Part shown: in pieces, positions 26,063 through 39,837 of the stretch | Position numbering within the stretch: the first letter of the stretch is position 1 | How the letters are laid out: every line of letters starts with the position of its first letter | Source: Leeuwenhoekiella nanhaiensis | Lineage (GTDB): Bacteria > Bacteroidota > Bacteroidia > Flavobacteriales > Flavobacteriaceae | Direction: 5' to 3' | Length of the DNA: 64,000 nt | Assembly (NCBI RefSeq): GCF_002744755.1 | Contig: NZ_KZ319287.1 | Location: 248,001 to 312,000, forward strand | Notes under the pieces: model-generated | What the model was told of the DNA's origin: nothing | Seen by the model: only the letters and a program-made list of their open reading frames with translations | Database searches by the model: none | Program-made: the position numbers and the translations under genes

Positions 26063-26136
26063 TCCTCCTTAGCTCAGTTGGTTAGAGCATTTGACTGTTA
26101 ATCAAAGGGTCCTTGGTTCGAGCCCAAGAGGGGGAG
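26063..26136 (+). tRNA. tRNA-Asn (GTT)
   Basis: Full cloverleaf: acceptor TCCTCCT/AGGGGGA, D-arm AGCTCAGTTGGTTAGAGC, anticodon stem TTTGA/TCAAA with loop CTGTTAA (anticodon GTT at 26097-26099), T-arm with GGTTCGAGCC. CCA is not encoded. Its 3' part is one arm of the 52-bp attachment repeat, so the integrated element rebuilt this tRNA. Confidence 0.97.
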
Positions 26137-26148
26137 CAAATTAAGCCT
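26097..26148. repeat. Attachment site attL (52-bp direct repeat)
   Basis: Identical to 39319-39370. It covers the anticodon-to-3' end of tRNA-Asn plus 12 bp of trailer (CAAATTAAGCCT), the classical target of tyrosine integrases. Confidence 0.93.
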
Positions 26149-26176
26149 TAACTACTTGTAGTTGAGGCTTTTTTGT
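26143..26176 (+). terminator. tRNA-Asn terminator supplied by the element
   Basis: Thirteen-bp stem AAGCCTTAACTAC / GTAGTTGAGGCTT (one G-T pair) with a 2-nt apex gap and a T-rich tail. The outer stem bases belong to the att repeat. Confidence 0.85.
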
Positions 26177-26261
26177 TTTTACTAACTCAGTATCTACGCG
26201 GGTTTAGAGCTCATTTCCTACTTTCATCCAATCCTTTAAGAATAGATCCAAATTTTGAATA

Positions 26262-26315
26262 TGTACACCTAATTAGGTGATACATTGAATAAATAGGTGT
26301 ACAATTCGGTGTACG
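26262..26315. promoter_or_regulatory. Four GGTGTACA-type repeats near attL (candidate integrase arm sites)
   Basis: TGTACACCT (26262-26270), AGGTGATACA (26275-26284), AGGTGTACA (26295-26303) and CGGTGTACG (26307-26315): one inverted and three direct versions in 54 bp between attL and int. Such clusters serve as arm-type or recombination-directionality-factor sites in other integrative elements; here this is inference. Confidence 0.5.
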
Positions 26316-26390
26316 TATTTTTTTCAGGTTATACATTTTTCTACTAGCATAATAGTATAATATTTTTTATGTCTTATTAATTCATATCTA

Positions 26391-27602
26391 ATGAGTATTA
26401 ATAAGTTATCTATTTTGTTTTATCCAAATAAAGCAAGAATAAATAAAAAAGGTTTCTGCGTATTGAGATGCAGATTAACCCTTGAAGGTGAAAGAAAGGA
26501 GTTCTCATCAGGACTTTTTATTAAACCTGAATATTGGAATTCATCTGAACAATTTTATTCTTCTGACACAGCTATAAATGATGAATTAGCCTTAATCACA
26601 AATAAGCTAAATGAATGCTATTTAAAATTGAGAGTTCAAGGTATACCTATTAGAGTAGAAGAAATTTTGAATAATTATTTAGGCATAGATGCCAAGGTAG
26701 AACACAATGAAACAGGTGTATCTGAATATTATCAAAGCTATTTGATGAAGTTTAAGAAGCTTATAGGGCTGGAGATAAAGAAAGTTACCTGGGATAAATT
26801 TTATTACGTAGGGCAACACCTAAAATCCTTTGTAATCTGGAAATACAAATCTAGGGATATACCACTTTCTAAATTGGATATGAATTTCCTTTCAGAATTA
26901 GATTTTTATCTTAAAACAGAGAAGGATCTTAAGCAAGTAACAATCAACAAGATTATACAGAGATTTAGGAAAGTAATACGCATTGCACTTTCTGAAAAGC
27001 TAATTGCAGCAGATCCATTTCTTCTATACAAATCAAAAAGTGTTAGAACTACTATTGTTTATTTGAATGAAATAGAATTGGCTAAGCTTGAAATGCACGA
27101 GTTCTCTCAAAAAAGACTTAATAATACAAGAGATTGCTTTATTTTCTGTTGTTATAGTGGTCTAGCATATGCTGAAATGATTGGCCTAAAGCCAAAACAT
27201 ATTGAAAAAGGATTTGACAATAACCTTTGGATTAAAATGGAAAGGGAAAAAACAGGTAAACCTTTATCAATTCCTTTGCTTCCAAAAGCTCTCAATATTC
27301 TAGAGAGATTTAAAAATGACACTGAATTTATCTTTCCCAGATTGAGCAATCAAAAATTTAATTCTTATCTGAAAGAGATTGCTGATATAGTTGGTATTGA
27401 TAAAAGGTTGACTCATCATACTGCTAGAAAAACTTTTGCAACGACAGTCTTATTATTTAATGATGTTCCTATGGAAATAGTTAGTGAGCTTCTAGGGCAT
27501 TCTAGCATCACTATAACACAAACACATTATGGAAAGATTGTGCAGAAGAAAGTGAGTGATCACGTAAAAGTTCTTAATGAAAAATTAGACTTGAAAAAGT
27601 AG
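26391..27602 (+). CDS. Tyrosine recombinase / integrase of the element
   Basis: 403 residues. N-terminal arm-binding domain (about 1-95), SAM-like core-binding domain (about 105-205), catalytic domain (about 220-400) with 'HHTARKTF' (H343, R346), 'GHSSI' (H370) and nucleophile Y380 in THYGK; a conserved Lys is in KTGKPLSIP. The box I Arg is replaced: 'GLAYAEM' has Ala at 259 where most family members have Arg, as known for CTnDOT-type integrases. It lies 243 bp from attL and reads into the element. It should catalyse integration into tRNA-Asn. Confidence 0.93.
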   Translation: MSINKLSILFYPNKARINKKGFCVLRCRLTLEGERKEFSSGLFIKPEYWNSSEQFYSSDTAINDELALITNKLNECYLKLRVQGIPIRVEEILNNYLGIDAKVEHNETGVSEYYQSYLMKFKKLIGLEIKKVTWDKFYYVGQHLKSFVIWKYKSRDIPLSKLDMNFLSELDFYLKTEKDLKQVTINKIIQRFRKVIRIALSEKLIAADPFLLYKSKSVRTTIVYLNEIELAKLEMHEFSQKRLNNTRDCFIFCCYSGLAYAEMIGLKPKHIEKGFDNNLWIKMEREKTGKPLSIPLLPKALNILERFKNDTEFIFPRLSNQKFNSYLKEIADIVGIDKRLTHHTARKTFATTVLLFNDVPMEIVSELLGHSSITITQTHYGKIVQKKVSDHVKVLNEKLDLKK

Positions 27603-27657
27603 AATAAATTGCAAGTATTGCTGAAATTGTAATACTTGCAATATTGATATTTTAAAG

Positions 27658-28467
27658 ATGGAGAAAATATATTTCTGGAAGTATTTGATAAATGATAAGT
27701 ATGAAATTTCAACTGCTGAAACAAGAGTGGAAATTCATTCAGTCATCAACTCAGAGGATTTTAAAAAGTTGGGAATTTTTCATTTAACTAAGTTTTTTAT
27801 AAACAGTTATGATATTTTTCAAATACCTGAAGATATCGATTCTAAAATTGAAGAACTCTTACAAAACTTTAGCATAGGTGAATTAAAGCGTGAATTACTA
27901 ATTTATGGCTGTTCTTTACAAAGTCAATTTGCAGAAAACTATAATATTTTAAAAGATGATCTTCTTGAAGATTTTGATCTAGAATACAAAGAATTTAAAA
28001 AACTACTTGCAGTTTTAAGAAGCTATTTGTTTGCTGATAATCTCAAAAATCTTCCAACTATAACATTTAAGACATTTTCAGAAGGGAATGTAAACATTAA
28101 AAATTTCTTTGTAATTAAAGATATTTATGAAGCTATTTGCGAAGGCTTCGATCTTAAAAAAGAAAACTTTGAAGAGCGCAGCAGGAATTTATTGGAAATG
28201 ACTAATAGAATTAAGGTTGAAAAATATTCCGAAAAGGTTAAGGTGGATTTTATCAGATGCTTATACGATTTTTTAACAAGCCTTGGATTTGAGAATGTAA
28301 ATGCATTGAAATTCATAGGCGTTTTTTTCAAGCTATTTCAAATTCAACTTAATAATAATGAGGATGAATTGGAAATTTATGATAATCTAGAAGACAATTT
28401 AAAGTCAATAGATTTAAAAAACCTGACTCATTACATCAAAAGGCCACCTAACTTTTCCTATTACTAA
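27658..28467 (+). CDS. Unknown element-encoded protein
   Basis: 269 residues, not recognised. Acidic, Lys/Glu/Leu/Phe-rich and predicted almost wholly helical; no signal peptide, no membrane segment, no Cys cluster. It starts 55 bp after the integrase and ends before a hairpin, so it may be an accessory of the recombination module (for example a regulator of excision as in other Bacteroidota elements), but that is only positional. Strong AT bias like its neighbours. Confidence 0.6.
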   Translation: MEKIYFWKYLINDKYEISTAETRVEIHSVINSEDFKKLGIFHLTKFFINSYDIFQIPEDIDSKIEELLQNFSIGELKRELLIYGCSLQSQFAENYNILKDDLLEDFDLEYKEFKKLLAVLRSYLFADNLKNLPTITFKTFSEGNVNIKNFFVIKDIYEAICEGFDLKKENFEERSRNLLEMTNRIKVEKYSEKVKVDFIRCLYDFLTSLGFENVNALKFIGVFFKLFQIQLNNNEDELEIYDNLEDNLKSIDLKNLTHYIKRPPNFSYY

Positions 28468-28469
28468 TA

Positions 28470-28511
28470 TTGAAACAAAAAGCACTCGCTTTTAAATTTT
28501 TCTTGTTTCAA
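28470..28511 (+). terminator. Terminator-like nested hairpin
   Basis: Outer arms TTGAAACAA / TTGTTTCAA enclose an inner hairpin AAAAGC-actc-GCTTTT followed by AAATTTTT. It lies directly after the stop of the unknown gene. Confidence 0.5.
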
Positions 28512-28581
28512 AAATACCCTTTAACACTACATAATTTTGTAATCGAAAAATAGAATTAACTATTTTTTTAATATTAAAATT

Positions 28582-29385
28582 ATGAGTAATCAAATTCAAT
28601 TTTATCAGGATTCAAAAATTTCTTGGACAGACAAGACTTGGAATCCTTGGAGAGGCTGTAACAAGGTATCAGCCGCGTGTAAACATTGTTATATGTTCAG
28701 ATACTATAGCAATAGAGGTATCAATCCGAATTTAGTAGTTAAACAGGAAGGAGTTTTTGATAAGCCATTAAGAATGGACAGAGGATCAAAAATATTCACT
28801 TGTAGTATGTCAGATTTCTTTCACGAGGGAGCTGACGAATGGAGGGCTGATGCCTGGGAGATTATAAAGAAGACTCCTAATCATAGTTATTTGATTCTAA
28901 CGAAAAGGCCGGAGAGGATTAAAGAAAATCTACCTGAGGACTGGAGTAAGGAAAATTATGGCCACGTATGGTTAGGGGTTACCGTAGAATCTCAAAAAGA
29001 AGTTCATAGAATTCATACTTTGGGAGAGATACCCTGTGAAGTTAGATGGGTTTCTTTTGAGCCATTGTTAGGTAATATAGAGTTAAGCCAACAAGAGCTC
29101 GAAATATTGGACTGGGCTGTTATAGGAGGTGAATCTGGGTATAAAAATCAAGTTAGAAAGACAGAATTGTCTTGGTACAATTCCCTAATGTTTCAAATTA
29201 TGGGGTATGGTATACCATTATTTTTTAAGCAATTAGGTAGTTATTACCATTATGAAGAACTGAAGCTTAGAGATTGGCACGGTCAAGAGTATTGTGAAAA
29301 CTTTCCAGGAAGATATAAGATTAGACAGTACCCCAAGTATTTGTATGGAGAAGAAGAGATTAACCATTTAAAAAAAGCAATATAA
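28582..29385 (+). CDS. DUF5131 / phage Gp37-Gp68 family protein
   Basis: 267 residues. 'ISWTDKTWNPWRGC' followed by C-x6-C-x2-C (GCNKVSAACKHCYM), and 'GGESG' plus 'FFKQLG' near the C-terminus, mark the phage Gp37/Gp68 (DUF5131) family, which has a radical-SAM-like Cys arrangement. Its reaction is not established to my knowledge. It often sits in phages and integrative elements. The downstream DUF3987 gene starts 1 bp after its stop, so they are one operon. Confidence 0.85.
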   Translation: MSNQIQFYQDSKISWTDKTWNPWRGCNKVSAACKHCYMFRYYSNRGINPNLVVKQEGVFDKPLRMDRGSKIFTCSMSDFFHEGADEWRADAWEIIKKTPNHSYLILTKRPERIKENLPEDWSKENYGHVWLGVTVESQKEVHRIHTLGEIPCEVRWVSFEPLLGNIELSQQELEILDWAVIGGESGYKNQVRKTELSWYNSLMFQIMGYGIPLFFKQLGSYYHYEELKLRDWHGQEYCENFPGRYKIRQYPKYLYGEEEINHLKKAI

Positions 29386-29386
29386 T

Positions 29387-30736
29387 ATGGATGTAGTACA
29401 AAATAAACAAAAAGTGACTTTTGAGGGTTCATCATCAGTTACTGCGACAGCAAATTCTACAGAATACATACCAAATGATGTGTATATGAATTTGCCAGAA
29501 CCATTAAAGGAGATTACAGAACAGTTTCAAGGTAGAGAAAGAGATATAATATTACTATCCTCATTGGGAGTTATAAGTGGGTGTATGCCAAATGTATTTG
29601 GGATTTATGCAAATCAAAGATATTATCCAAACCTATACATTTTTGTTATTGCACCCCCTGCTTCAGGGAAAGGCAGTATGAATTGGGCTAAAAAATTAGT
29701 GGAACCAATTCACGAGGAAATTGTTGGAGAGAGCAAAAGAAAAATTTCTGAGTTTAGAAATATTGCTAATAATGAAAATATTCCAGAACCAAAGCTTGAA
29801 ATTAAACTAGTACCTGGAAATACAAGTTCGTCTAAATTTTACACCCATTTAGAGAGAGCAGAAGATGCTTTAATCATTTTTGAGAGTGAAGCAGATACTT
29901 TGTCGAATATGCTTAAACAAGATTGGGGTAATTTTTCAGATTTATTGAGGAAAGGGTTTCATCACGAAACTCTTTCAATAAGTAGGTCAACTGAAGACAG
30001 GTTTTTTGAAATTAAAGATCCCAAATTATCAATAATAGTATCAGGTACTCCAAATCAAGTTAAGCCATTAGTTGACTCAAAAGAGAATGGCCTATTTAGC
30101 AGGTTTATTTATTATTATTTTGATGAAATAAGCAGCTGGAAGGATGTGAGCCCAAATGCTTACAGAGTAAGTTATGATGATTTAATGGCTGAAAAAGCAA
30201 TAGTTGTTAAAGAATTAAGTGATAAGCTTAAAAGTTTAAAAAAGGTTGAAATTAAATTGACTAGAGAACAATGGAACTTTTTTCAAATGAAGATGAGTAA
30301 AATTAATGACCTAATTGTAAAAACCGAAAAAGTAGATTTTCTTTCCATAGTTAGGAGATTAGGTGTAATTGCTTTTAGGTTGATATGTATATTAACAGTT
30401 TTAGAAAAAAATCTTGAAATTGAAGATGAGGAATCTGTTCTAGTTGCTAGTGATATTCACGTTGAAATAACCTTCGAGTTAGTAAATGTGTTGTTGGAAC
30501 ACTCCTTGAAAGTATTTGACAAGTTCGACAATAAAGGTGTTGCCTTAAATATGCAAGAAAGAGAATTAATTAGTCTATTACCGAATGAATTTAAGAGAGG
30601 AGAAGGACTTGAAATATCAAATAGTATAGGAATACCGGAGAGAACTTATGATGAGATTTTAAAGAAGTGGAATGTTATGAAAATTATTCAAAAAGTATCT
30701 CACGGGAATTATAAAAAGATAATTTTCAATAATTAA
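29387..30736 (+). CDS. DUF3987 protein (primase/helicase-like)
   Basis: 449 residues. Walker A-like 'APPASGKGS' (about 90-98) in a RecA/helicase-like core, then 'FESEADTLSNML' and 'SIIVSGTPNQV', which are DUF3987 features. These proteins are found in phages and islands, usually with primase or helicase roles in replication. No Toprim or primase domain is fused to it here. In one operon with the DUF5131 gene. Confidence 0.8.
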   Translation: MDVVQNKQKVTFEGSSSVTATANSTEYIPNDVYMNLPEPLKEITEQFQGRERDIILLSSLGVISGCMPNVFGIYANQRYYPNLYIFVIAPPASGKGSMNWAKKLVEPIHEEIVGESKRKISEFRNIANNENIPEPKLEIKLVPGNTSSSKFYTHLERAEDALIIFESEADTLSNMLKQDWGNFSDLLRKGFHHETLSISRSTEDRFFEIKDPKLSIIVSGTPNQVKPLVDSKENGLFSRFIYYYFDEISSWKDVSPNAYRVSYDDLMAEKAIVVKELSDKLKSLKKVEIKLTREQWNFFQMKMSKINDLIVKTEKVDFLSIVRRLGVIAFRLICILTVLEKNLEIEDEESVLVASDIHVEITFELVNVLLEHSLKVFDKFDNKGVALNMQERELISLLPNEFKRGEGLEISNSIGIPERTYDEILKKWNVMKIIQKVSHGNYKKIIFNN

Positions 30737-30778
30737 GATTTGCAAGATCTGCAAAGTTTGCAGTTTAAAGTATTTGAT

Positions 30779-30802
30779 AAGCGGGCATTAGCCCGCTTTT
30801 TC
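30779..30802 (+). terminator. Rho-independent terminator
   Basis: Stem AAGCGGGC / GCCCGCTT with loop ATTA and T5 tail, 42 bp after the DUF3987 stop. Confidence 0.85.
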
Positions 30803-30857
30803 ATTTCCATATGATATATAATTAACATTAATATTTATAAAATTAAATACGATTATT

Positions 30858-31721
30858 ATGAACTTAAGAAAGTCAGAAAGAAGAAGAGCCAAGATTAAAA
30901 TGGCTTTACAAGGATCAGCTGGAAGTGGGAAAACCTACTCCAGTTTACTATTAGCAAAAGGATTAATCAATGGAGATTTTTCTAAGGTAGCCATTGTAGA
31001 TAGTGAAAATGGAAGTGCAGATTTATATGCTCATTTGGGCCAGTATAATGTACTCTCATTATCACCACCTTTTACACCAGAGAAGTATATTCAAGCTATA
31101 GATGTATGTCTCAAATCTGGGATGAAAGTGATTATCCTAGATTCAATTTCTCAGGTGTGGGATGAGCTATTAGATTTTCATTCCAAGCTTCCGGGTAATT
31201 CATTTTCGAATTGGAATAAGGTTACACCTCGTCAACGTGCATTTGTAGACAAAATTTTACAGGCAGATGCTCACATTATAGCTACAATGAGAACCAAGCA
31301 GGATTATGTATTGAACCAGAAAGATGGAAAATACATCCCTGAAAAAGTAGGCTTAAAGGCTGTACAAAGGGATGGAGTAGATTATGAATTTACTTTAGTA
31401 TTTGATATAGACTCTAAACATTTTGCTGTTGCCAGTAAAGACAGAACCAATTTATTCTCTGGTAAGCCTGAGTTTACTATCAATGCTGCTACAGGAAAGA
31501 AGATTCTGGAATGGTGTAATGATGGTGAAACCTTAGAGGATACCAGACTCAAAATTCTGAATTGTAAAGATCTGGAACAATTAAGAACCTTGTACCAGCA
31601 ACACTATAGTACTCAGGAACTAGCTGCAGACTTCAAACTTAAGAAGGAAACTATAGAAGCTAAAACACATTTATTGAACCCTCAAAAAATAAGTCAAAAT
31701 GGACATAGTGCACACTCTTAA
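30858..31721 (+). CDS. Sak4-like RecA-fold ATPase (phage nucleotide-binding protein)
   Basis: 287 residues. Walker A 'GSAGSGKTYSSLLLAKG' (about 19-35), 'AIVDSENGSADLY', Walker B 'VIILDSISQVWDELL', and sensor-like 'IIATMRTKQDYVL'. This is the AAA_24 group that includes phage Sak4 single-strand annealing ATPases. A role in recombination or replication of the element is expected. The C-terminal 60 residues are an extra helical tail. The next gene overlaps it by 23 bp. Confidence 0.85.
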   Translation: MNLRKSERRRAKIKMALQGSAGSGKTYSSLLLAKGLINGDFSKVAIVDSENGSADLYAHLGQYNVLSLSPPFTPEKYIQAIDVCLKSGMKVIILDSISQVWDELLDFHSKLPGNSFSNWNKVTPRQRAFVDKILQADAHIIATMRTKQDYVLNQKDGKYIPEKVGLKAVQRDGVDYEFTLVFDIDSKHFAVASKDRTNLFSGKPEFTINAATGKKILEWCNDGETLEDTRLKILNCKDLEQLRTLYQQHYSTQELAADFKLKKETIEAKTHLLNPQKISQNGHSAHS

Positions 31722-32709
31722 ACCAGATATGGAATTAACTCCAGTAAAATCTACAAACCTCATAGTATATGATACAGGGGATGATATTGTAAATAAAAAT
31801 CCATTTATAGAGGCTAATACTAAAAGTGTTAGCCTTTCACATTTACAAAGGGATTGTATTATTCCTGTATTCAGCAAGGACAATGAAAAGACCATTGCTC
31901 ATCAGGAATATATAGAAGCAGTTCAGGAATCTGTAAGTAAAATTTTTTCACATCATAGAATAGAAGCCCCAGAGATGCGTGTTAGCCATCAAATTAAAGG
32001 CAGAACACCTAGTGCAATTTATAAGGCAGCAAAAGACCTCCTAGAGCACGAGAAGACCACATATTATGAGAGAATGGCTTTCATTATACGTGTACCTAGT
32101 ATAACTCAAACTATTAATGGTAATAGGTTGGCTTTAACTATAGGTGGGGTTAGATCTTACAACAAGGAAAATCTTTACAGCAAGAAGTCTGTAGAGAAGT
32201 TCCAGGTATTTATAGGGTTCCAAAATATGGTGTGCTGCAATTTATGTATTAACACAGATGGTTTTTCTTCTGAATTGCGGGTTAGTGGAGTTAATGAACT
32301 TACCGGTAAGGTGCAAGAGTTAATCTCAAACTATGATGCAGAAAAACATCTAAGGGAGCTGGAAACTCTCACTCAATATAGCCTTACTGAATCTCAGTTT
32401 GCACAGCTAGTTGGAAAGGCAAGGCTATACAACTATCTGCCTAAAGAACAGAAATCTGAAATACCACCTTTATTACTCAATGATGGGCAGGTTACAGCTA
32501 TAGCAAAAGATTATTATCAGGATGAAAGGTTTTGCATAAATGAAGAAGGTAATATCAACCTTTGGAATGTATATAATCTCTTTACTTCAGCTAATAAGAG
32601 TAGCTATATAGACACCTTCTCAGATAGGAATGTCAATGCATTTGAATTTACAAATGGTTTGGCAAAAACTCTCAATGGTAATTCTAACTACCATTGGTTT
32701 TTGAGTTGA
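31699..32709 (+). CDS. DUF3871 family protein
   Basis: 336 residues resembling the Bacteroidota DUF3871 family (related to DUF932 phage/plasmid proteins): 'EMRVSHQIKGRTPSAIYKAA', 'MAFIIRVPSITQTINGNRLALTIGGVR' region, and C-terminal 'NVYNLFTSANKSSYIDTF'. Function unknown; always accessory-genome linked as far as I know. The ATG at 31699 overlaps the ATPase gene by 23 bp; an alternative ATG at 31729 would remove the overlap. Confidence 0.8.
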   Translation: MDIVHTLKPDMELTPVKSTNLIVYDTGDDIVNKNPFIEANTKSVSLSHLQRDCIIPVFSKDNEKTIAHQEYIEAVQESVSKIFSHHRIEAPEMRVSHQIKGRTPSAIYKAAKDLLEHEKTTYYERMAFIIRVPSITQTINGNRLALTIGGVRSYNKENLYSKKSVEKFQVFIGFQNMVCCNLCINTDGFSSELRVSGVNELTGKVQELISNYDAEKHLRELETLTQYSLTESQFAQLVGKARLYNYLPKEQKSEIPPLLLNDGQVTAIAKDYYQDERFCINEEGNINLWNVYNLFTSANKSSYIDTFSDRNVNAFEFTNGLAKTLNGNSNYHWFLS

Positions 32710-32712
32710 GTG

Positions 32713-32746
32713 ATACCCAGTTCTCTTTTGAGGCTGGGTATTTTTC
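32713..32746 (+). terminator. Rho-independent terminator after the DUF3871 gene
   Basis: Stem ATACCCAG / CTGGGTAT with a 13-nt loop and T-rich tail, directly after the stop codon. Confidence 0.8.
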
Positions 32747-32775
32747 TCACTTACCACAAATAAGATCTAATTAGT

Positions 32776-32958
32776 TTAAAGTTCCTCAACAAGTTGAGCA
32801 AGCTCAGGATAGTTTGCTTTTTCAATTGCTTCATCACCATCTAGATGAATCTTTCTAGAGTTAAAATCTTTAGAAACAGGATATGTAGTTAATTTGGAAT
32901 CTGGATAATTTGCATCAAAGAAAGATATAATATCAGGGCTAAGCCAATTTTTCTCTAT
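32776..32958 (-). pseudogene. Open frame without start codon: remnant of a lost gene
   Basis: The minus strand holds about 60 codons with good protein character ('NWLSPDIISFFDANYPDSKL' through 'LAQLVEEL' and a stop) but no ATG, GTG or TTG in frame; the frame is closed upstream by a stop next to the end of the restriction enzyme gene. It is out of frame with that gene. It looks like the 3' end of a gene whose 5' part was removed, or a tail lost by frameshift. Confidence 0.5.
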
Positions 32959-32962
32959 TTAC

Positions 32963-35900
32963 TTATTCAGCTCCAAATATTTTAGGTGTTAATATCTCAA
33001 TTTCAACCTCTGTAGAATCAATTTTTTTATTGTTTTTGTCTTTGTAAAATTGATGAGCATCTTTTGATAATTTAGACATTGTTAAATGATCTTTATTTGA
33101 TTCATCAAACTCAGGAATATTTATATTTTTTACAATATCTACTCCTTTTTGAATATCTATTGTGTAAGCCTCAATTATTTCTCCAATAACTCTAGAATTT
33201 AAAATTCCACATAAATAATGAGCTTCTTCCTCCGAATTAAATGAAACATATAGAACTTTGGAATCAGATAAAACAAGTTTATTTCCTAAATATTCATCAT
33301 CAACTGATGATACAACAGCTGCAGTCATTTCTTTACTCTGTTCTCTCCATAATACCTTATAAGGCATAAATGTATAGTCTCCAACATTATCAAGTCTATA
33401 CCAAGGAAATTGGTCTTTGTCGAAAAATTTTCCGCTTCTTATTCTTGTTTCAAGTAATAAATCTTTAAAATAAAATAACCAATCGTAAGTCTTTTTATAT
33501 TTAACTTTTAAAACCTTGTCTTCAATACCTCTGTATTTTGATTTTCCTGTGGAATTATGGGGCACAACTATATATAAATAAGAATTTAAACCCCATTTAT
33601 CTATATTTCTTCCTCCAGCCATTGGATAAACTAGATCTTTCTCTACAACACCAGGAAAGACACCTAAATCTTTTGCTTTCTGTAATCTAGATCTTTCAAT
33701 TAAGTTTTCAATATGAATATTGTTCCCAACTGTTTTTTTAATATCTACAAGGTAAATACCTTTTGCTCCACAAGGTTCTATTCCTTTTCTTCCTTTATAG
33801 GGGGATTTTCCTAAATATTTTCCAAGATTAACAAACAATGAATTTTTTATAGTAAGCCAAGGACTTCTTAGATTATTATTTATTGGTTGAGCCGAAAGTT
33901 TTTCAAACCCCATTTTCTTTTTTACTGTTGAATAGCTATCTTCAAATGAAATCTTGTTAGATGAAATATTGTAACATTCGAAATAGTTTTCCATAGGATA
34001 TGTCATTTTTGAATTTTTTTCAAAGACATATACAGATGTTCTATTTGAAGCTTCACCTTTAAAAGGATTTACTTTAAGCATATCATAAACTTCTATTATA
34101 GAAAAGGGAATATTTAATCCATCTCGGGATATTATAAATTTTCTAAAACCTTCACCACCTTTTAAAGATTTGACAAATGTTTGTGGTAAAACAAAGGAAG
34201 TTAGACCATTATCTTTTAAATAATGATCTACACAAACATAAGTTACAGCCATTGCAAAATCATCATGACTTGTGATCTTATCATAAGCACTTTTTTCAAA
34301 TATTCCGTAGCTTAACCATATATCTAAAGTAGCTTTTCTATATGTGTCAGACATTGCTTTCCAAGTAATCCAAGGTGGATTACCTATTATAACATCAAAT
34401 TTGCTTTGTGAAAAAAGAGGTGCAAATGAGTTTTTCAAAATAATCGGCCAGAAACCATTTTTACCACTTAAATGTAAATTGTATAATTTGTCATAAAATA
34501 TTTTTGCATATTCAATCTGCTCTGAATTTAATTTGATTTTATTTTCTGAAATCAATAGTTTATGAAATTCATCAAATGACGTATAATCTTTAAGAATACA
34601 AGAGGAAGTAGTTTTTAAAAAGTAATCATTTTCTTCTCGGGTACTAAAAACAGGAATCTCAAATGCTCCAACAACTGTATTTATATCTATTGAATGTTTC
34701 TTTTCTTTTTGTTTAGCGTGAACTGTTGGAACCAGGATAGAATCACACATATATACTGGAATTGTAATTTCCTTTTCTAACTGTGTTATATCACCCAAAG
34801 CTAGAATGTAATTTGCTTTTGCCGAAATAACTGCAATTGGATTTATATCAAAACCTACAATATTTTTTGTGATATTATCTATTAAATCTGTTTGACTTAT
34901 TTTCCCTTTATGCTTTTCAGAAAATTGTTTGACTAAATGTGTCAAAAAAGCTCCCGAACCACAAGTTGGATCCAAAATAGATGTATTAAGTCCACAATCA
35001 TATTTAGATTTTTCAATTGTGAAATCAACTAGCCAATCTGGTGTATAATATTCGCCAAGTAAATGCCTTAAGCCTCTCGGTATTAAGTCCGAATAGATTT
35101 TTTTTAGAACGTCTCCAACAACTTCAGGTTTAATTACAGAAGCTGTTGTCTCAAAAGTATCTAACTCGGTAATAATATCATTTATGAAATCCATTTTTAA
35201 ATCCTCTGCAAGAACAAACCATTCAAAAAAATGAATTTCAAAGAAATTATCTATATAATAATTAGTATAATGATTTCCTGAAAACAAAGATGTAAGCTCA
35301 TTTTTATATTTTGGTTGCTTAGCTTTCTCAGTTGGGTTTGTTAATGACTCAAGTAAATTGTGGACTAAAAGCTTTATTACAATGCTATAATAAGTCTGTA
35401 GGACAAAAAGGGTGTGCCTGATTTCCATATTCTTTGGCAAAGAATACATCTTAATTAAATCATCCTTATACTTTGTGAAATCTGTTTCCTCTTTTCCGTA
35501 AATATCACCAAATATCCTATTCCACTCCTGAAATAATGTTTCAATTCTTGTGTTTGAATTTTTATTACTATTTAATAGTTCATAGAGGTAAAGAATACTA
35601 TTTTTTGAAATATCAGAACTTGATGAAAATGATTGCAAAAGATTTTCTGAAGACAATCTTTTTCTTTTGGTAGATCTTATAAAAAGGAGTAATTTCTTCA
35701 CTCCTAAGTCAAAATCAGTTATTTTTTCAATTTCATAAGTAAGCTCTCTCTTATTTTGAATATGCTTTGGAAATTTTTTTGTTTTCCTGTTTACGAGTAA
35801 ATCAATTACGTTAGTATCTTTTTTATATCTAAAAAAAATAAAGGTTTTTCCGTCAAAGGCAACTCCTACCTTTGAAAGTAATATTTGTTCAAAATATGTA

Positions 35901-36235
35901 TCATCTCCTTTTCCTAGTTCATCTAAACTAAAATTTACCAAGTAAGAATATAACCCCCTATCCTTATCATCTCTTCCATATATTGCCTCATCTTCACCTA
36001 CTTGTGATTTGAATTTTTTGGGTGTTTTAAATTCAAAAATAATATCAGAATAAATACTGTCCGCTCTTCCTCCTTGAAGTGAAGAAACTTCACTTGAGAA
36101 CGATTTCTTTAGCCCATAAAAATCAGAAATACTATCAAGAAAAATATTTGTATTAATTCTTACGTCCTCTTCATTTTGTGAGTTTAGACTATTGTTTTTA
36201 AACTTGGTTATTATTTTACTTATATCAATTTCCAT
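32963..36235 (-). CDS. Eco57I-type restriction enzyme/methyltransferase (type IIG-like)
   Basis: 1090 residues. N-terminal nuclease motif: 'GGRADSIYSDIIFEFKTPK' (about 55-73; D59/D64, E68, K70, PD-(D/E)xK pattern). Helical linker to about 370, then an N6-adenine methylase core: 'LGEYYTPDWLVDF', motif I 'DPTCGSGAFLTHL', 'GFDINPIAVISAKANYILAL', motif IV 'IIGNPPWITW'. The C-terminal about 350 residues should be the DNA-specificity region. One polypeptide cuts and methylates, so no separate subunits are needed. It faces opposite to the rest of the element and is probably self-contained cargo for phage defence. BREX PglX has a similar methylase core, but the N-terminal nuclease and lack of partners argue against that. 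Confidence 0.88.
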   Translation of the reverse strand: MEIDISKIITKFKNNSLNSQNEEDVRINTNIFLDSISDFYGLKKSFSSEVSSLQGGRADSIYSDIIFEFKTPKKFKSQVGEDEAIYGRDDKDRGLYSYLVNFSLDELGKGDDTYFEQILLSKVGVAFDGKTFIFFRYKKDTNVIDLLVNRKTKKFPKHIQNKRELTYEIEKITDFDLGVKKLLLFIRSTKRKRLSSENLLQSFSSSSDISKNSILYLYELLNSNKNSNTRIETLFQEWNRIFGDIYGKEETDFTKYKDDLIKMYSLPKNMEIRHTLFVLQTYYSIVIKLLVHNLLESLTNPTEKAKQPKYKNELTSLFSGNHYTNYYIDNFFEIHFFEWFVLAEDLKMDFINDIITELDTFETTASVIKPEVVGDVLKKIYSDLIPRGLRHLLGEYYTPDWLVDFTIEKSKYDCGLNTSILDPTCGSGAFLTHLVKQFSEKHKGKISQTDLIDNITKNIVGFDINPIAVISAKANYILALGDITQLEKEITIPVYMCDSILVPTVHAKQKEKKHSIDINTVVGAFEIPVFSTREENDYFLKTTSSCILKDYTSFDEFHKLLISENKIKLNSEQIEYAKIFYDKLYNLHLSGKNGFWPIILKNSFAPLFSQSKFDVIIGNPPWITWKAMSDTYRKATLDIWLSYGIFEKSAYDKITSHDDFAMAVTYVCVDHYLKDNGLTSFVLPQTFVKSLKGGEGFRKFIISRDGLNIPFSIIEVYDMLKVNPFKGEASNRTSVYVFEKNSKMTYPMENYFECYNISSNKISFEDSYSTVKKKMGFEKLSAQPINNNLRSPWLTIKNSLFVNLGKYLGKSPYKGRKGIEPCGAKGIYLVDIKKTVGNNIHIENLIERSRLQKAKDLGVFPGVVEKDLVYPMAGGRNIDKWGLNSYLYIVVPHNSTGKSKYRGIEDKVLKVKYKKTYDWLFYFKDLLLETRIRSGKFFDKDQFPWYRLDNVGDYTFMPYKVLWREQSKEMTAAVVSSVDDEYLGNKLVLSDSKVLYVSFNSEEEAHYLCGILNSRVIGEIIEAYTIDIQKGVDIVKNINIPEFDESNKDHLTMSKLSKDAHQFYKDKNNKKIDSTEVEIEILTPKIFGAE

Positions 36236-36491
36236 TTAATTTCAATCTTGTTTTAAGTCAAAGATAAATTTTTAAATCACCTCGTGTAATTTTAGTTCTG
36301 GTTTTACATTAAACGAATCATCTGAAAATTTCTATTAGGGAAGTTTAAATTGTGATATAGCCTTTTTAAATAAGGATTTAATCAGATCAGTGCCCTGGAT
36401 TTAACTCAAATATTTTTTTTAAATTTTTTGTGAAGTTTAAATAATACGTGTATGTGATATTCCTTCAAATCTACCCCACCCCTTTCAAACC

Positions 36492-36518
36492 GCACTAATT
36501 ACCCCCACCCATTAGTGC
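36492..36518. repeat. Hairpin with C-rich loop
   Basis: Perfect 8-bp inverted repeat GCACTAAT / ATTAGTGC around the loop TACCCCCACCC. No T-run follows, so it does not look like a terminator. Confidence 0.7.
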
Positions 36519-36562
36519 AGGGATAAACTTTTCTGTACCTGAATAAATATTAATTCAATTTA

Positions 36563-36597
36563 TAGTCTTTTCAGTCTAGTCATTCATCTAGTCTTTT
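36563..36597. repeat. Iteron-like TAGTC direct repeats
   Basis: TAGTCTTTT at 36563-36571 and 36589-36597 with a third TAGTC at 36577-36581; spacing 14 and 12 bp. Located 50-85 bp before the 36648 gene. Confidence 0.45.
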
Positions 36598-36647
36598 AAG
36601 CTATAGTTGTATTGATCAGGTTTTTATCAACTCAAATATTTTATACA

Positions 36648-37046
36648 ATGGTTAGAATTGTTGGATTTAAACAAAGAGAAAAAGAGGATGGTACACCATT
36701 CTTTATTTTAGAATTACAGGGAGGCATTGAGATGACTCTAAGTAAGGAAACAGGGCAGTTTTATGCTACAGCTAAAAAGGCTTACGTGACAAGTACATTT
36801 GATGAGCAAACTTGTAAAGCTTTAGTAGGTTCTGAAATGCCAGGATCTATTCAAAAGAAAGAAGTAGAGCCTTACACCTATGTTGTACAGGAAACAGGTG
36901 AAGAACTAATACTTCATCACAGATGGGTATTTGTACCAGAATCTGATAATACAGCTAAAGAAGAAAAATTAGTTAATCAGCTAATGGCAGATGACTCTAT
37001 TTTTTCTAACAATGGGGTTCCTGAATTAGCTCAACAGGCTATTTAA
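36648..37046 (+). CDS. Unknown small element protein
   Basis: 132 residues from ATG 36648; the longer frame from 36612 is not needed. 'MVRIVGFKQREKEDGTPFFI' and following segments are beta-strand rich at the N-terminus with a helical C-terminus; no signal peptide. An OB-like or similar small fold is possible but not recognised. It precedes the RadC-like gene on the same strand, with a long-loop terminator in between. Confidence 0.7.
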   Translation: MVRIVGFKQREKEDGTPFFILELQGGIEMTLSKETGQFYATAKKAYVTSTFDEQTCKALVGSEMPGSIQKKEVEPYTYVVQETGEELILHHRWVFVPESDNTAKEEKLVNQLMADDSIFSNNGVPELAQQAI

Positions 37047-37055
37047 TTATTAATT

Positions 37056-37118
37056 AATCCTTCCACATTTGTTGAACCACTATACTAGGTGTTTTACAGA
37101 TTTGGAAGGATTTTTATT
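37056..37118 (+). terminator. Long-loop terminator-like inverted repeat
   Basis: AATCCTTCCA (37056-37065) pairs with TGGAAGGATT (37103-37112), followed by TTTATTTTTT-like sequence. The loop of 37 nt is unusually long. Confidence 0.5.
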
Positions 37119-37126
37119 TTTTACTT

Positions 37127-37561
37127 ATGAAAGCTGCAGAAATAAAAGTGTCCTATATAAACAAGAATGAACAAAAGATAAAAATATCAAGTAGTAGTTC
37201 TGCTTATGAGTTAATACTAAACCATTGGGATCTCAACATCATAGATTTTATGGAAGAAGTGAAGGTAATACTACTCAACAGAGCCAACACAGTACTTGGA
37301 GTATATGAATTATCAAAAGGGGGTAGTACCTCTTGTGTTGTAGATGTTAAGATTATTCTTAATGTAGCAATTAAAGCACACGCAAGTTCAATAATCCTGG
37401 TACATAACCATCCATCCGGACAGGTAATTCCTAGTGAGACAGACAAAAGACTTACTATTAAGCTCAAAGAGGCCTGTAAAATGGTGGACCTTGAACTGCT
37501 AGATCATTTAGTGATCTCTAGAGACTCTTACACAAGTTTTAGTGATGAAAATCTGTTATAA
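37127..37561 (+). CDS. RadC-like JAB/JAMM domain protein
   Basis: 144 residues. The JAMM metal site is intact: upstream Glu in MEEVKVILL, then 'ILVHNHPSGQVIPSETD' (HxHxPSGx-D). The N-terminal helix-hairpin-helix of full RadC is absent; this short form is typical of mobile elements. The molecular function of RadC-like proteins is still unclear; a nuclease or peptidase role has been proposed. Confidence 0.88.
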   Translation: MKAAEIKVSYINKNEQKIKISSSSSAYELILNHWDLNIIDFMEEVKVILLNRANTVLGVYELSKGGSTSCVVDVKIILNVAIKAHASSIILVHNHPSGQVIPSETDKRLTIKLKEACKMVDLELLDHLVISRDSYTSFSDENLL

Positions 37562-37761
37562 TTTAATGTGTGTAGATGTGCTTACATATCCCTCTAAAAC
37601 ATACTTATAAAGGATAAAGCAAATAGTGTAGATATAATATTATAGCGGAATTTTACATTCTAGTGGAGTAAATCAGCTCCATTTAGAATAGATTCCTTGG
37701 TATATATCTTTTTGTATAGTTGTATTGGGGATGCAGAGCACTAACTGCCTAATAGCCAAAA

Positions 37762-38028
37762 CTATTTTCCTGTAGTTGAATAATCCAGCAATTGAGGTAA
37801 ACTTACATCTAGTGCTTTAGCTATTCTATAGAGCGTAAATAGGGTAGGATTGTTCCTGCCAGATTCTATTCTAGATACATTAGTTACATCAAACTCACCT
37901 AGCATCTTAGTAATTAAGTCAAACTGAGACAGACCTTTCTGCTCTCTAATACGCTGGATATTCTTTCCAACATTTTTGAGGAGCTCAGCTCTTATATTAT
38001 CTAAATCAGACTCTTTCACACTTGTCAT
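37762..38028 (-). CDS. XRE-family transcriptional regulator of the element
   Basis: 88 residues from ATG 38028 (the upstream TTG at 38037 falls inside an inverted repeat). Cro/C1-type helix-turn-helix: 'IQRIREQKGLSQFDLITKML' then 'DVTNVSRIESGRNNPTLFTLYRIAKALDV'. It is divergent from the 38107 gene; two palindromes lie in between, one overlapping its own start codon, consistent with autoregulation and a lysogeny-like switch. Confidence 0.88.
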   Translation of the reverse strand: MTSVKESDLDNIRAELLKNVGKNIQRIREQKGLSQFDLITKMLGEFDVTNVSRIESGRNNPTLFTLYRIAKALDVSLPQLLDYSTTGK

Positions 38029-38039
38029 ATTTGACAAGT
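38020..38039. promoter_or_regulatory. Inverted repeat over the XRE start codon
   Basis: ACTTGTCA-TATT-TGACAAGT, a perfect 8-bp inverted repeat that includes the ATG (complement at 38026-38028) of the regulator. Confidence 0.6.
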
Positions 38040-38069
38040 CAAAGCAACTGATTATATTGTAGAACTATA

Positions 38070-38085
38070 TTGCCATATATGGCAA
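38070..38085. promoter_or_regulatory. Perfect 16-bp palindrome between divergent genes
   Basis: TTGCCATATATGGCAA lies 22 bp before the 38107 gene and 42 bp before the XRE gene; a probable operator. Confidence 0.6.
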
Positions 38086-38106
38086 CCTAACCTAATCTTA
38101 CTAGTA

Positions 38107-38598
38107 ATGAAACAGATTTTTTATGTTGTAGTAGCACTTTTTATGTATACTCAAGTTAATTCCCAAACCTTGGAGGAAACTTCAGATTATTTAGAATACA
38201 TCATTGAAGAAAACCCACCATTTCAGGGTATGTCTACTGAATTTAAGGTAGTAAATACAAGTGATGGAGATAGGTTTACGTATGTTATAGAATTACGTGA
38301 AGGGGATAAAATATTAAACTCAAAAACCAGCCTTGTTTATTTGTCTGAAATTAAAAATATCATACTTGATGTGGCAAATTATGAAGGCCACGTAAAATAT
38401 CAGTTAAGGATAGGTTTAAAAGCTGATAAATTAAACTCATTTGCAGTAGCCTATGGTAACTCTATGAATGCTGTACCTATAGATGAATTAGTAATTGCAT
38501 TACCAAATAATGAGGTTTTAGCTAATAAAATTAAAAGTGCACTGATGCATCTTTTCAAATTAAAAAATTTAAAAGTGTCAGATTTAAATATGTTTTGA
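38107..38598 (+). CDS. Secreted protein of unknown function
   Basis: 163 residues with a signal peptide (MKQIFYVVVALFMYTQVNSQ). The remainder is beta-rich then helical, Asn/Lys/Glu-rich, with no known motif and no Cys in the mature protein. It heads a three-gene plus-strand set at the right end of the element and is divergent from the XRE regulator, which may control it. Confidence 0.65.
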   Translation: MKQIFYVVVALFMYTQVNSQTLEETSDYLEYIIEENPPFQGMSTEFKVVNTSDGDRFTYVIELREGDKILNSKTSLVYLSEIKNIILDVANYEGHVKYQLRIGLKADKLNSFAVAYGNSMNAVPIDELVIALPNNEVLANKIKSALMHLFKLKNLKVSDLNMF

Positions 38599-38607
38599 GT
38601 CTTAGTT

Positions 38608-38784
38608 ATGAGTAATAATGAAGATGGACACGAATTTAGGTTTATATTGTGCTCAATGCTTGCAGCCATTTATAGTTGGTACTTAGTAGATCCAAATTCA
38701 TTTACAGGATACATTAGGTGGTTTTTGGGTACAATTATTTTGTGGATAGTATTTTGGTCAATATTAAAATTCCTTACCAAATGA
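38608..38784 (+). CDS. Small two-helix membrane protein
   Basis: 58 residues, below common ORF cut-offs. MSNNEDGHEFRF is followed by a hydrophobic segment (about 12-27, 'FILCSMLAAIYSWYL'), a short polar turn and a second hydrophobic segment (about 38-56, 'WFLGTIILWIVFWSIL'). It starts 9 bp after the previous stop and its TGA overlaps the next ATG (ATGA), the classic sign of translational coupling. Confidence 0.65.
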   Translation: MSNNEDGHEFRFILCSMLAAIYSWYLVDPNSFTGYIRWFLGTIILWIVFWSILKFLTK

Positions 38785-39212
38785 ATGTTTTAGACAGTAT
38801 TCCATATAGAGTTGGCTCAACATTCGAGGAGCACAATGTTAGCCTGGAATTTTTGAAGGAATTTAATGCAGATTCAAAATACTATGCTAGTTATAGATAT
38901 TCTGAACTATATCTATTTGGTAGGGCTTTTCAAGCAGAATGTTATCTCCATTTTTGGAAGGGAGTATTAAATACAATTCAATATAAAATCCATAAGGAAA
39001 ACTTTGATCTTTTTAGAGATTCCTTGAATGAAGAGTTACCAGTAGATAAACCATTAAAAAGAGATCTGTACAATGAAAGATTTGCACTAGAAAGCTATTG
39101 TAATGGTATAGCTGTAGGATTGACTCAGTTGAATGAGAATTATTTTATGCTGAAAATATCTAAAAACCCAAGCTTACCTCGAATTAAATCAAATAAAAGC
39201 AATAGGTCTTAA
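38781..39212 (+). CDS. Unknown cytosolic protein coupled to the small membrane protein
   Basis: 143 residues from ATG 38781, which overlaps the stop of the two-helix membrane protein by 4 bp; the upstream in-frame GTG at 38718 is rejected for this reason. Charged, helical and aromatic-rich ('ECYLHFWKGVLNTIQYKIHK'), no recognised domain. The pair membrane-protein/soluble protein at the edge of an element suggests a cargo module of unknown purpose (toxin-antitoxin, immunity or abortive-infection type are options without direct evidence). Confidence 0.6.
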   Translation: MNVLDSIPYRVGSTFEEHNVSLEFLKEFNADSKYYASYRYSELYLFGRAFQAECYLHFWKGVLNTIQYKIHKENFDLFRDSLNEELPVDKPLKRDLYNERFALESYCNGIAVGLTQLNENYFMLKISKNPSLPRIKSNKSNRS

Positions 39213-39318
39213 CACCTATATTAATTAAATAATATTAACCATAAGGCATACAATTAGGTTATACTATTATGTTAGTAGAAATGCACACCAATACAAGACC
39301 TTTAAATATAGGGGCTGA

Positions 39319-39370
39319 GTTAATCAAAGGGTCCTTGGTTCGAGCCCAAGAGGGGGAGCAAATTAAGCCT
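39319..39370. repeat. Attachment site attR (52-bp direct repeat)
   Basis: Identical to 26097-26148: the displaced 3' half of tRNA-Asn plus trailer. It has no 5' half and is not a functional tRNA. Confidence 0.93.
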
Positions 39371-39399
39371 GTAAACATACTGTTTACAGGCTTTTTTGT
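39365..39399 (+). terminator. Displaced original tRNA-Asn terminator
   Basis: Thirteen-bp perfect stem AAGCCTGTAAACA / TGTTTACAGGCTT, loop TAC, T-rich tail. It shares outer stem and tail with the terminator at 26143-26176 but has a different inner stem. Confidence 0.85.
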
Positions 39400-39534: not shown

Positions 39535-39837
39535 ATGAGTTTTGGTCAAAGAATAAAAGAGTTAAGAGAAAATAAGAAACTGTTGCAACGTCACTTGGCT
39601 GCAAGTTTGGAAATAGATACCCCTATGTTCAGTAAAATTGAACGTGGGGAAAGAAAAGCGAAAAGAGAACAAGTATTAAAACTCGCAAAACTTTTAGAGA
39701 CTGATGTCGATGAATTATTGACAGCTTGGCTTGCCGATAAAATCTATGATCTTGTTAAGGACGAAACAACCGCTGTGAATGCAATAAAAGTTGCCGAAAC
39801 TACATTAAAATACTCTAAAATTGAAAAACAATTATAA
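39535..39837 (+). CDS. XRE-family controller protein of the R-M operon
   Basis: 100 residues: helix-turn-helix 'IKELRENKKLLQRHLAASLE' and 'FSKIERGERKAKREQVLKLAKLL', then a helical tail. HTH controllers at the head of R-M operons delay nuclease expression until methylation is complete. The gene overlaps the first methylase by 17 bp. Its promoter architecture predicts leaderless mRNA, as known for several C proteins. Confidence 0.82.
   Translation: MSFGQRIKELRENKKLLQRHLAASLEIDTPMFSKIERGERKAKREQVLKLAKLLETDVDELLTAWLADKIYDLVKDETTAVNAIKVAETTLKYSKIEKQL

Follow-up and report, generated by a model that had tools for sequence, protein, structure and literature searches.

What is the compact island that sits in a tRNA-Asn gene of Leeuwenhoekiella nanhaiensis, and how does it travel? 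We address this question for the segment 26097-39370 of a 64,000-nucleotide stretch of contig NZ_KZ319287.1 (hereafter the window), which an earlier note, made from the sequence alone, had described as a compact integrative element with recombination and primase-like genes, possibly satellite-like and outside the known classes. The island belongs to a family that is widespread in flavobacteria, and it is neither an isolated case nor a decayed prophage. The description in the note is borne out in that this compact integrative element is distinct in kind, could not be assigned to a known class and recurs in many flavobacteria. On balance, we favour the interpretation that it is a satellite-like hitchhiker, with its cargo lying between recombination genes that may also exchange this cargo.

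A family of islands with a common backbone

The DUF3871 protein of the island was used as a probe against genome contigs and found 100 relatives, of which the best 80 were used. Forty-nine of these 80 loci, together with the window, gave 50 elements bounded by matching repeats (set 1), with sizes from 11.3 to 29.1 kb. From 42 loci in other genomes we obtained 29 further bounded elements (set 2); among the other 13 loci, two repeated set-1 elements, two were without a usable repeat and nine had no repeat in the sequence examined. The second-best repeat was taken as the right attachment site (attR) at L212, and the tRNA was assigned by hand at L183, where there was a tie.

Within set 1, the backbone consists of SAK, which encodes an ATPase (50/50), DUF3871 (50/50), a tyrosine integrase (49/50), orf8 (49/50), a RadC-like gene (47/50) and an XRE-type regulator (45/50). 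The island in the window follows the family order, namely integrase, SAK, DUF3871, cargo, orf8, RadC and XRE. Further recurrent clusters are the orf13 family of small proteins at the right end (28/50) and HTH_17 (25/50), and the left part carries alternative modules, marked by the clusters c7 (20/50) and c8 (16/50), a helicase (12/50) or DUF3987 (11/50).

The search for attachment (att) sites was seeded on tRNA genes, so the bounded elements lie in tRNA genes by construction. Genes for seven different tRNAs serve as targets of these 79 elements (Met 33, Asn 21, Val 8, Arg 6, Ala 4, Ser 4 and Asp 3). The gene order, which the earlier note had suggested seeking next to tRNA-Asn in other Flavobacteriaceae, thus recurs there and at six other tRNA kinds. 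In the 80 DUF3871 loci as a whole, a tRNA gene lies upstream within the examined stretch in 67, not always adjoining the integrase. Tandem and duplicated arrangements were also seen. An 86-kb contig of the IMG/VR database (L275, L276, L287-L289) carries at least two integrase-helicase-SAK-DUF3871 units in a row, that is, tandem islands, and at L203 and L219 a tRNA of the same kind is predicted on both sides, from which we take it that the element carries a whole tRNA copy.

Of 395 genomes sampled from the host's family, 55, about one in seven, contain a match to DUF3871, whole or in pieces, as do 50 of 393 genomes sampled from its order; both counts include the host's own genome and the class II relatives described below. 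In phage and plasmid collections the domain is rare, with matches in 2 of 50,697 phage records and 1 of 72,556 plasmid records, and a profile query against 2.9 million viral contigs retrieved 12 loci, located on 11 of them. DUF3871 therefore marks these islands and not the known phages. Short or interrupted pieces of the gene (G004:C45:192199-192336, G436:C17:79456-79692 and G186:C3:537284-537436) are probably the remains of lost islands. In a second arrangement, class II, orf8 stands directly before SAK-DUF3871 and the cargo is on the same strand (for example, L125, L126, L128, L137, L138, L165 and L177); these elements are a probable sister group.

Insertion in tRNA-Asn and the site in relatives

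In the window, the island measures 13.2 kb from att repeat to att repeat. The identical 52-bp repeats at tRNA-Asn that the note had pointed out are exact copies, attL at 26097-26148 and attR at 39319-39370, spaced 13,222 bp start to start, and the complete left copy of the target gene, tRNA-Asn(gtt), is predicted at 26063-26137 (coordinates here and below are on the plus strand unless stated). Searching the whole window for the 24-bp att core with at most three mismatches gave two sites, compared with 0 matches in 100 shuffles. The repeat consists of the 3′ half of the tRNA and 11 nt ending in AAGCCT, which contain the 5′ arm of a hairpin resembling a terminator. At each junction the sequence forms a strong hairpin with a T run after it (-15.8 and -18.3 kcal/mol, z -5.4 and -6.1). 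At the left junction, the hairpin is a new one made from the repeat end and island sequence 3′ of the tRNA (26143-26175). At the right junction, the original hairpin is retained as a displaced tRNA-Asn terminator (39365-39397), recognised by its fold and its likeness to the sequence of another genome of the genus, G002. A tyrosine integrase adjoining a tRNA gene and direct repeats that restore this gene are the arrangement of an integrative, tRNA-targeting genomic island.

Genome G002 also shows tRNA-Asn with no such island in it. There the terminator of the window's right flank follows directly after tRNA-Asn (33 nt, 97%), and a match to the next gene of the window (42934-43404, cupin-like by eye) starts about 1.2 kb on. 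This unoccupied site rests on one genome, the others being different at tRNA-Asn or giving no resolved site.

A different occupant is found in the closest relative, G004 (rseP region 96%), and it is the observation in favour of the alternative that the island is a decayed remnant of a prophage or of an integrative and conjugative element (ICE). At the same tRNA-Asn, G004 carries an integrase 51% identical to that of the island and a type I methylase-like gene (weak HsdM-type similarity), while genes for a terminase, a portal, a head protease and a major head protein lie 23-29 kb from the tRNA and a 30-nt copy of the tRNA end about 51.5 kb away. From the 16 of its 51 kb that were examined, we infer that this segment is one prophage; among 13 genomes of the genus, one has this terminase. 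The 51% integrase and the weak methylase similarity are all that the examined 16 kb shares with the island, and the island's own backbone is found again and again, in 50 elements whose att sites match. The note had named a decayed part of a larger element as a finding that would overturn its proposal, and none of the mapped relatives was seen to be a larger conjugative element. We therefore rejected the prophage-remnant reading and consider decay of either parent element very improbable.

Movement between genera and mosaic structure

Nineteen elements lie beside rseP, which allowed DUF3871 and this chromosomal neighbour to be compared in 171 pairs using full reading frames. In 124 of the 171 pairs, the identity of DUF3871 exceeded that of rseP by more than 5 points, and in only one did it fall short by more than 5 points (143 and 1 of 171 in a cruder comparison based on fragments). 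The extremes weigh most here, because DUF3871 may simply evolve slowly. For the elements L033 (Aquimarina agarilytica) and L050 (a Cellulophaga metagenome-assembled genome, MAG), which occupy the same site, DUF3871 is 92% and rseP 62% identical, with orf8 at 97, RadC at 99 and the integrase at 91%. Likewise, L062 (Kriegella) and L063 (a Cellulophaga MAG) share 96% identity in DUF3871 and 58% in rseP.

The second line of evidence comes from the other genes of the elements. These counts take all pairs, so that related elements count as if they were independent. Among the 77 pairs in which DUF3871 is at least 86% identical, the integrase is less than 65% identical in 51 (two computations agree) and SAK less than 70% in 24; in 14, orf8 and RadC are at least 85% identical while the integrase is below 65%. 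The cargo differs as well: 51 of the 68 set-1 pairs with DUF3871 at least 86% identical share less than 20% of their cargo residues, the mean share being 0.17 in those 68 pairs versus 0.06 in all 1225 set-1 pairs. The target follows the integrase, as the same tRNA is used in 34 of 35 pairs with integrases at least 80% identical, versus 63 of 126 for DUF3871 and 796 of 3081 pairs overall. Since the identities of DUF3871 and integrase, and of DUF3871 and rseP, disagree, we conclude that the elements move between genera and are mosaic.

At the level of whole elements, homology of at least 80% is limited in many pairs to a SAK-DUF3871 block of about 2 kb and an orf8-RadC block, and other pairs share more. 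In L134 and L135, which reside in one genome, the genes of these blocks are 97-99% alike, the integrase proteins are 31% identical and the left modules differ. Sharing of the blocks between elements with different integrases and cargo most likely arises by homologous or single-strand-annealing recombination, which would keep the blocks alike while the genes around them change.

The islands might also spread mainly by natural transformation or generalised transduction, with capture by the integrase or by homologous recombination and with no dedicated helper. The strong mosaicism, the restriction of homology to short blocks in many pairs, the spread over genera and the fact that no packaging or transfer gene was found would all agree with such passive spread. 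However, the conserved SAK, DUF3871 and orf8, together with DUF3987 or a helicase and an XRE switch, suggest replication and regulated induction, and we regard spread with no dedicated helper as unlikely, though not negligibly so.

The cargo slot

The elements have a defined place for their cargo. The distance from attL to DUF3871 is 3.8-6.3 kb (standard deviation 0.56 kb), whereas the stretch from DUF3871 to orf8 ranges from 1.2 to 20.4 kb (standard deviation 3.7 kb, in the 74 elements with a placed orf8), and its content varies among members. In the window, the slot holds a single gene, on the minus strand (32963-36235), for a type IIG restriction-methyltransferase of 1090 amino acids; it has a Pfam methylase domain and matches a full-length PADLOC model over residues 2-1064 (E 6.8e-223).

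For the other members, we started from the 283 protein clusters of set 1. Leaving out the 6 core clusters, 8 pre-labelled ones (helicase, DUF3987, DUF5131, restriction-modification (R-M) and methylase clusters) and those with representatives below 110 amino acids left 215 non-core clusters, of which 150 of the 152 representatives of at most 400 amino acids and 61 of the 63 longer ones were scanned. The four bulk scans listed the best 25 of 81, 61, 310 and 81 matching families. Among the families listed are Gabija, Hachiman, DISARM components, MADS and type I specificity subunits, as well as Shedu, DndE, Cap4, E2, Mrr, HamA, Abi_2 and R-M models; no terminase, capsid or relaxase family is among these best 25 of each scan. 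Judged by these family matches, the slot between DUF3871 and orf8 is a site that takes restriction and other anti-phage systems. The interval thus provides a fixed address at which to find such systems in Bacteroidota, and the family offers an explanation for their passage between genera.

Predicted properties of the core proteins

The protein encoded by SAK (30858-31721) had been labelled a Sak4-like ATPase. The ATPase part of this label is confirmed by the AAA_24 domain (7e-17), whereas the Sak4 part is less firm: the strong PHROGs match is to phrog_1366 (3.9e-72), a family with no named function, and the Sak4-like family phrog_124 is matched at only 7.1e-6. Relatives of SAK occur in 409 phage records. 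The gene overlaps DUF3871 (31699-32709, assigned by Pfam), whose model (predicted local distance difference test, pLDDT, 78.6) gave no credible match in the PDB, the highest probability listed being 0.14.

The orf8 gene (36648-37046) was defined by clustering. Its start was set at a conserved MVRI, the longest open reading frame (ORF) beginning at 36612. No sequence-profile match to orf8 was found in Pfam, PHROGs or a PDB sequence search, and none of SAK, DUF3987, one helicase and orf8 had a useful sequence match in the PDB. The AlphaFold2 (AF2) model of orf8 has five strands and a helix in the order of an oligonucleotide/oligosaccharide-binding (OB) fold (pLDDT 80.5, predicted template modelling score, pTM, 0.63), with a tail of low confidence from about residue 101, in which S120 and N122 are conserved in at least 90% of 43 sequences. 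The best PDB matches in Foldseek are single-stranded DNA-binding protein (SSB) and PriB, at a weak best E-value of 8.3e-3. An SSB-like OB fold is thus weakly predicted for orf8.

In phage HK620, the available part of the published account describes a Sak4 annealase that is stimulated by an SSB encoded nearby, via the last residues of that SSB (PMC5928155). SAK and orf8 may form a similar annealase/SSB pair, to judge from family membership and predicted fold. The likeness, as far as that account goes, lies in a Sak4-type ATPase with an SSB-like partner, and in class II relatives orf8 is directly 5′ of SAK. In contrast to the phage pair, the orf8 of class I elements is separated from DUF3871 by the cargo slot, at a distance of 1.2-20.4 kb, profile matches place SAK only weakly in the Sak4 family and the pairing here is a predicted one.

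A more specific version of our interpretation, which is possible and which we put forward tentatively, is that the islands are a satellite-like platform for the exchange of defence cassettes. The annealase set, SAK/DUF3871 on one side and orf8/RadC on the other, would then supply the recombination activity and, as its sequences stay alike, also the homology arms for swaps of anti-phage cargo and integration modules between co-resident islands. The recombination blocks make cargo swapping directly testable.

Transfer and the question of a helper

The 13 ORFs of the island were taken as genes and scanned for families, all 13 with Pfam and 10 with PHROGs (the type IIG gene, XRE and orf12 being excluded from the latter). 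In agreement with the first reading of this sequence, which had seen no transfer or virion genes, no virion, packaging, relaxase or type IV secretion system (T4SS) family was found in 13 of 13 genes by Pfam and 10 of 13 by PHROGs. The island thus has no virion genes of a prophage, nor, among its 13 genes, the relaxase or T4SS gene of an ICE or an integrative and mobilizable element (IME), although no search for an origin of transfer (oriT) was made. As no transfer machinery of its own was found, the island probably uses that of other elements.

One candidate for such help is conjugation, the island being an IME with an undetected oriT that borrows relaxase and T4SS from an ICE or plasmid resident in the cell. 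Islands mobilised in trans by conjugative elements are described in the accessible part of a review (PMC11389934), and a relaxase of PF03432, the only relaxase family searched, is present in 10 of 48 host genomes. However, none was found in the other 38, and the ten genomes have 15 matches, none of them less than 400 kb from a DUF3871 of the same contig; several are on other contigs of draft genomes and so not placeable. The phage-like genes of the island, such as SAK with its relatives in 409 phage records and DUF3987, which matches phage helicase and primase families in PHROGs, also speak against mobilisation by conjugation, and we consider it distinctly unlikely. Because most host genomes have no PF03432 relaxase and no match was placed near DUF3871, a phage helper looks likelier than a conjugative one. 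The islands probably depend on other elements for their spread, phages being the likeliest.

The satellite-like way of life that we favour would then run as follows. To judge from the junctions, the integrase would insert the element into the 3′ end of tRNA-Asn, and the element would restore the 3′ half of the tRNA and provide a terminator. The left part would serve as an integration and replication module, here with the integrase and the primase/helicase-like DUF3987 protein and in other members with a helicase or a different set. It would be followed by the SAK-DUF3871 recombination block, in which SAK would act as a phage-type Sak4-like ATPase, by the cargo slot, and by a second block, in which orf8 may be the SSB-like partner and RadC stands next to a divergent XRE switch. 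On induction, the element would be excised and replicated by DUF3987 and the recombination genes; as the scans of its genes gave no relaxase, T4SS, capsid or terminase, packaging by a helper phage is proposed. Through its cargo, the element would benefit the host and keep rival phages out.

Several points weigh against this interpretation. Excision, replication, particle and helper are all proposed, and the phage collection yielded no phage that matches in its set of genes, DUF3871 being present in 2 phage records and orf8 in none. The island lacks an HTH_17 gene, which half of the set-1 elements carry. The conservation of the blocks could partly reflect selection rather than recombination, the pairs are not independent, and some cargo is passed on together with the backbone, as 2 of the 68 pairs share more than 80% and the mean share exceeds that of all pairs. 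The Foldseek E-values of orf8 are no better than 8e-3, with TM-scores of at most 0.36 among the matches listed, and some element could still carry an overlooked packaging or transfer gene, since the four bulk scans listed the best 25 of their matching families. Finally, element sizes do not settle the matter. An excess at 18.1-19.0 kb was noticed in set 1 (15/50 elements versus 8.4 expected, p 0.0013 with the bin chosen afterwards; p 0.0078 for the fullest 900-bp size interval), and this bin was then fixed for set 2, where, in independent elements, it held 5 of 29 versus 3.1 expected (p 0.11). Size quantisation was therefore dropped as proof of packaging. The sets joined give 20 of 79 versus 10.9 expected (p 0.0002), a lead and not a result because the discovery set and related elements are included; the statistic ignores kinship, L035 and L040, for example, being near-identical.

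The search for excised or phage-borne forms gave the following. None of the 16 IMG/VR loci has the terminal repeats of a circular form, a weak negative as they are mostly cut pieces. A 15.5-kb record of Bacteroides finegoldii, 'plasmid 58', carries DUF3871 and was rejected as an excised form, having two integrases and no annotated SAK. A 4.25-kb faecal scaffold named 'Bacteriophage sp.' encodes relatives of SAK (65%) and DUF3871 (51%); the record is marked unverified and is weak evidence. In the host's own genome, a terminase-like gene (phrog_2, E 2.3e-44) lies on a separate 28.1-kb contig (L291, G000 C20), which by eye also has a DnaB-type helicase and other phage-like genes. This contig is a candidate helper or an ordinary prophage.

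Comparison with known mobile elements

Phage satellites such as the phage-inducible chromosomal islands (PICI), their capsid-forming counterparts (cfPICI), P4-like elements and PICI-like elements (PLE) carry an integrase, a regulator, replication genes and defence cargo, and have a packaging, terminase or capsid-modifying gene as a feature. The island differs from them in that no terminase, capsid-remodelling or packaging gene was found among its 13 genes, and its gene families are others. Riemerella belongs to the same bacterial order as the host. Its 50K island, related to phage RAP44, is likewise downstream of a tRNA, with an integrase related to that of the phage, and the part of the report available describes its excision and circularisation (PMC9745183). 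The 50K island, however, is described as a phage genome that has undergone gene loss (PMC9745183), whereas the flavobacterial family is compact and has a backbone of its own.

The phage-inducible chromosomal minimalist islands (PICMI) of Vibrionaceae are comparable as small integrase islands with no capsid-remodelling genes; according to the accessible text, they protect their host from other phages and are packaged as concatemers (PMC10803314). The search model given there combines an integrase, AlpA/HTH_17 and a DUF3987/DUF5906 primase (PMC10803314). The island in the window has the integrase (PF00589) and a DUF3987-type protein (PF13148), with the DUF5906 half not seen; it has no AlpA/HTH_17 gene (25/50 family elements have one), and it lies in tRNA-Asn, whereas PICMI lie beside fis (PMC10803314). 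The sizes also differ, PICMI115 being 6.1 kb (PMC10803314) and the elements in tRNA genes studied here 11-30 kb. Moreover, the present family has SAK, DUF3871, orf8, RadC and a large cargo slot.

The I55-type tmRNA islands of Pseudomonas share with the present family an integrase, insertion in an RNA gene, direct repeats and the lack of recognised genes for autonomous transfer, and they carry defence systems, a type II-G enzyme among them; a jumbo phage transduces I55, as stated in the part of the paper available (PMC12595487). They differ in bacteria, target and size, and that part of the paper mentions no DUF3871/SAK/orf8 core (PMC12595487). Taken together, the PICMI and I55 precedents, as far as these sources describe them, indicate that integrase islands with no packaging genes can be carried by phages (PMC10803314, PMC12595487). 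Another candidate for comparison, the marine virus-like elements, was set aside, being small elements of archaea in the text seen (PMC12324425).

A full-text search found DUF3871 in one paper, as an entry in a table. In the titles and openings of abstracts searched, with most subscription papers outside the search, no account of the family was found, although one may exist elsewhere. The listings also contained no satellite family described for Bacteroidota. Defence-carrying, helper-dependent integrase islands are known as a kind, whereas the family, its core and the anatomy of its exchange appear to be new. The family predicts helper phages in a phylum for which no satellite family was found described.

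Remaining genes and flanks of the island

Of the gene order listed in the earlier note, Pfam confirms the integrase, DUF5131, DUF3987, DUF3871, the methylase domain of the type IIG enzyme, RadC and HTH_3; orf2, orf8 and three ORFs at the right end are additions to that list. The tyrosine integrase (26391-27602) has the domains Arm-DNA-bind_5 and SAM_5 and the catalytic domain (PF17293/PF13102/PF00589). It is followed by orf2 (27658-28467), which encodes 269 amino acids with no significant Pfam, NCBIfam or PHROGs family and whose cluster is present in 4/50 elements. The DUF5131 gene (28582-29385; Pfam, phrog_2045) is found in 5/50 elements; PADLOC places it in candidate defence families (PDC-M41B/M30B), so the left module may hold additional cargo here. 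Next to it is the gene for the primase/helicase-like DUF3987 protein (29387-30736; Pfam, phrog_2373 and phrog_3022). Beyond orf8 lie the RadC-like JAB gene (37127-37561) and, on the minus strand, the XRE-type regulator (37762-38037, HTH_3), both assigned by Pfam.

The right end starts with orf11 (38107-38598), encoding 163 amino acids with no family and a start that by eye resembles a signal peptide. The hydrophobic orf12 (by eye; 58 amino acids, 38608-38784) has no Pfam family and may not be a gene. It overlaps orf13 (38718-39212), identified by clustering, which belongs to the family found near attR in 28/50 elements. This is a family of variable small proteins adjoining attR, sometimes in two copies (L019 and L022). 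Just inside the ends of the island, a repeat search found a 23-bp inverted repeat (22/23), with its left arm at 26338-26360 and its right arm at 39259-39281 on the minus strand, a possible site for the integrase or an accessory protein. No comparable pair was found in the other 49 elements; inverted repeats beat all 20 shuffles in 5/50 elements, of which only the pair in the window is strong, and they were rejected as a family trait.

The abrupt AT-richness that had been noted for the island holds on the left, with a guanine-plus-cytosine (GC) content of 0.310 inside and 0.439 in the left flank. It does not end at attR: the right flank has 0.353, and the AT-rich sequence continues to about 42.8 kb, over a separate R-M cluster. 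No third att copy that could belong to this cluster was found in the window. The cluster (39535-42778), just outside attR, encodes an HTH control-type protein, two D12-class adenine methyltransferases and a 343-amino-acid protein with weak PD-(D/E)XK similarity.

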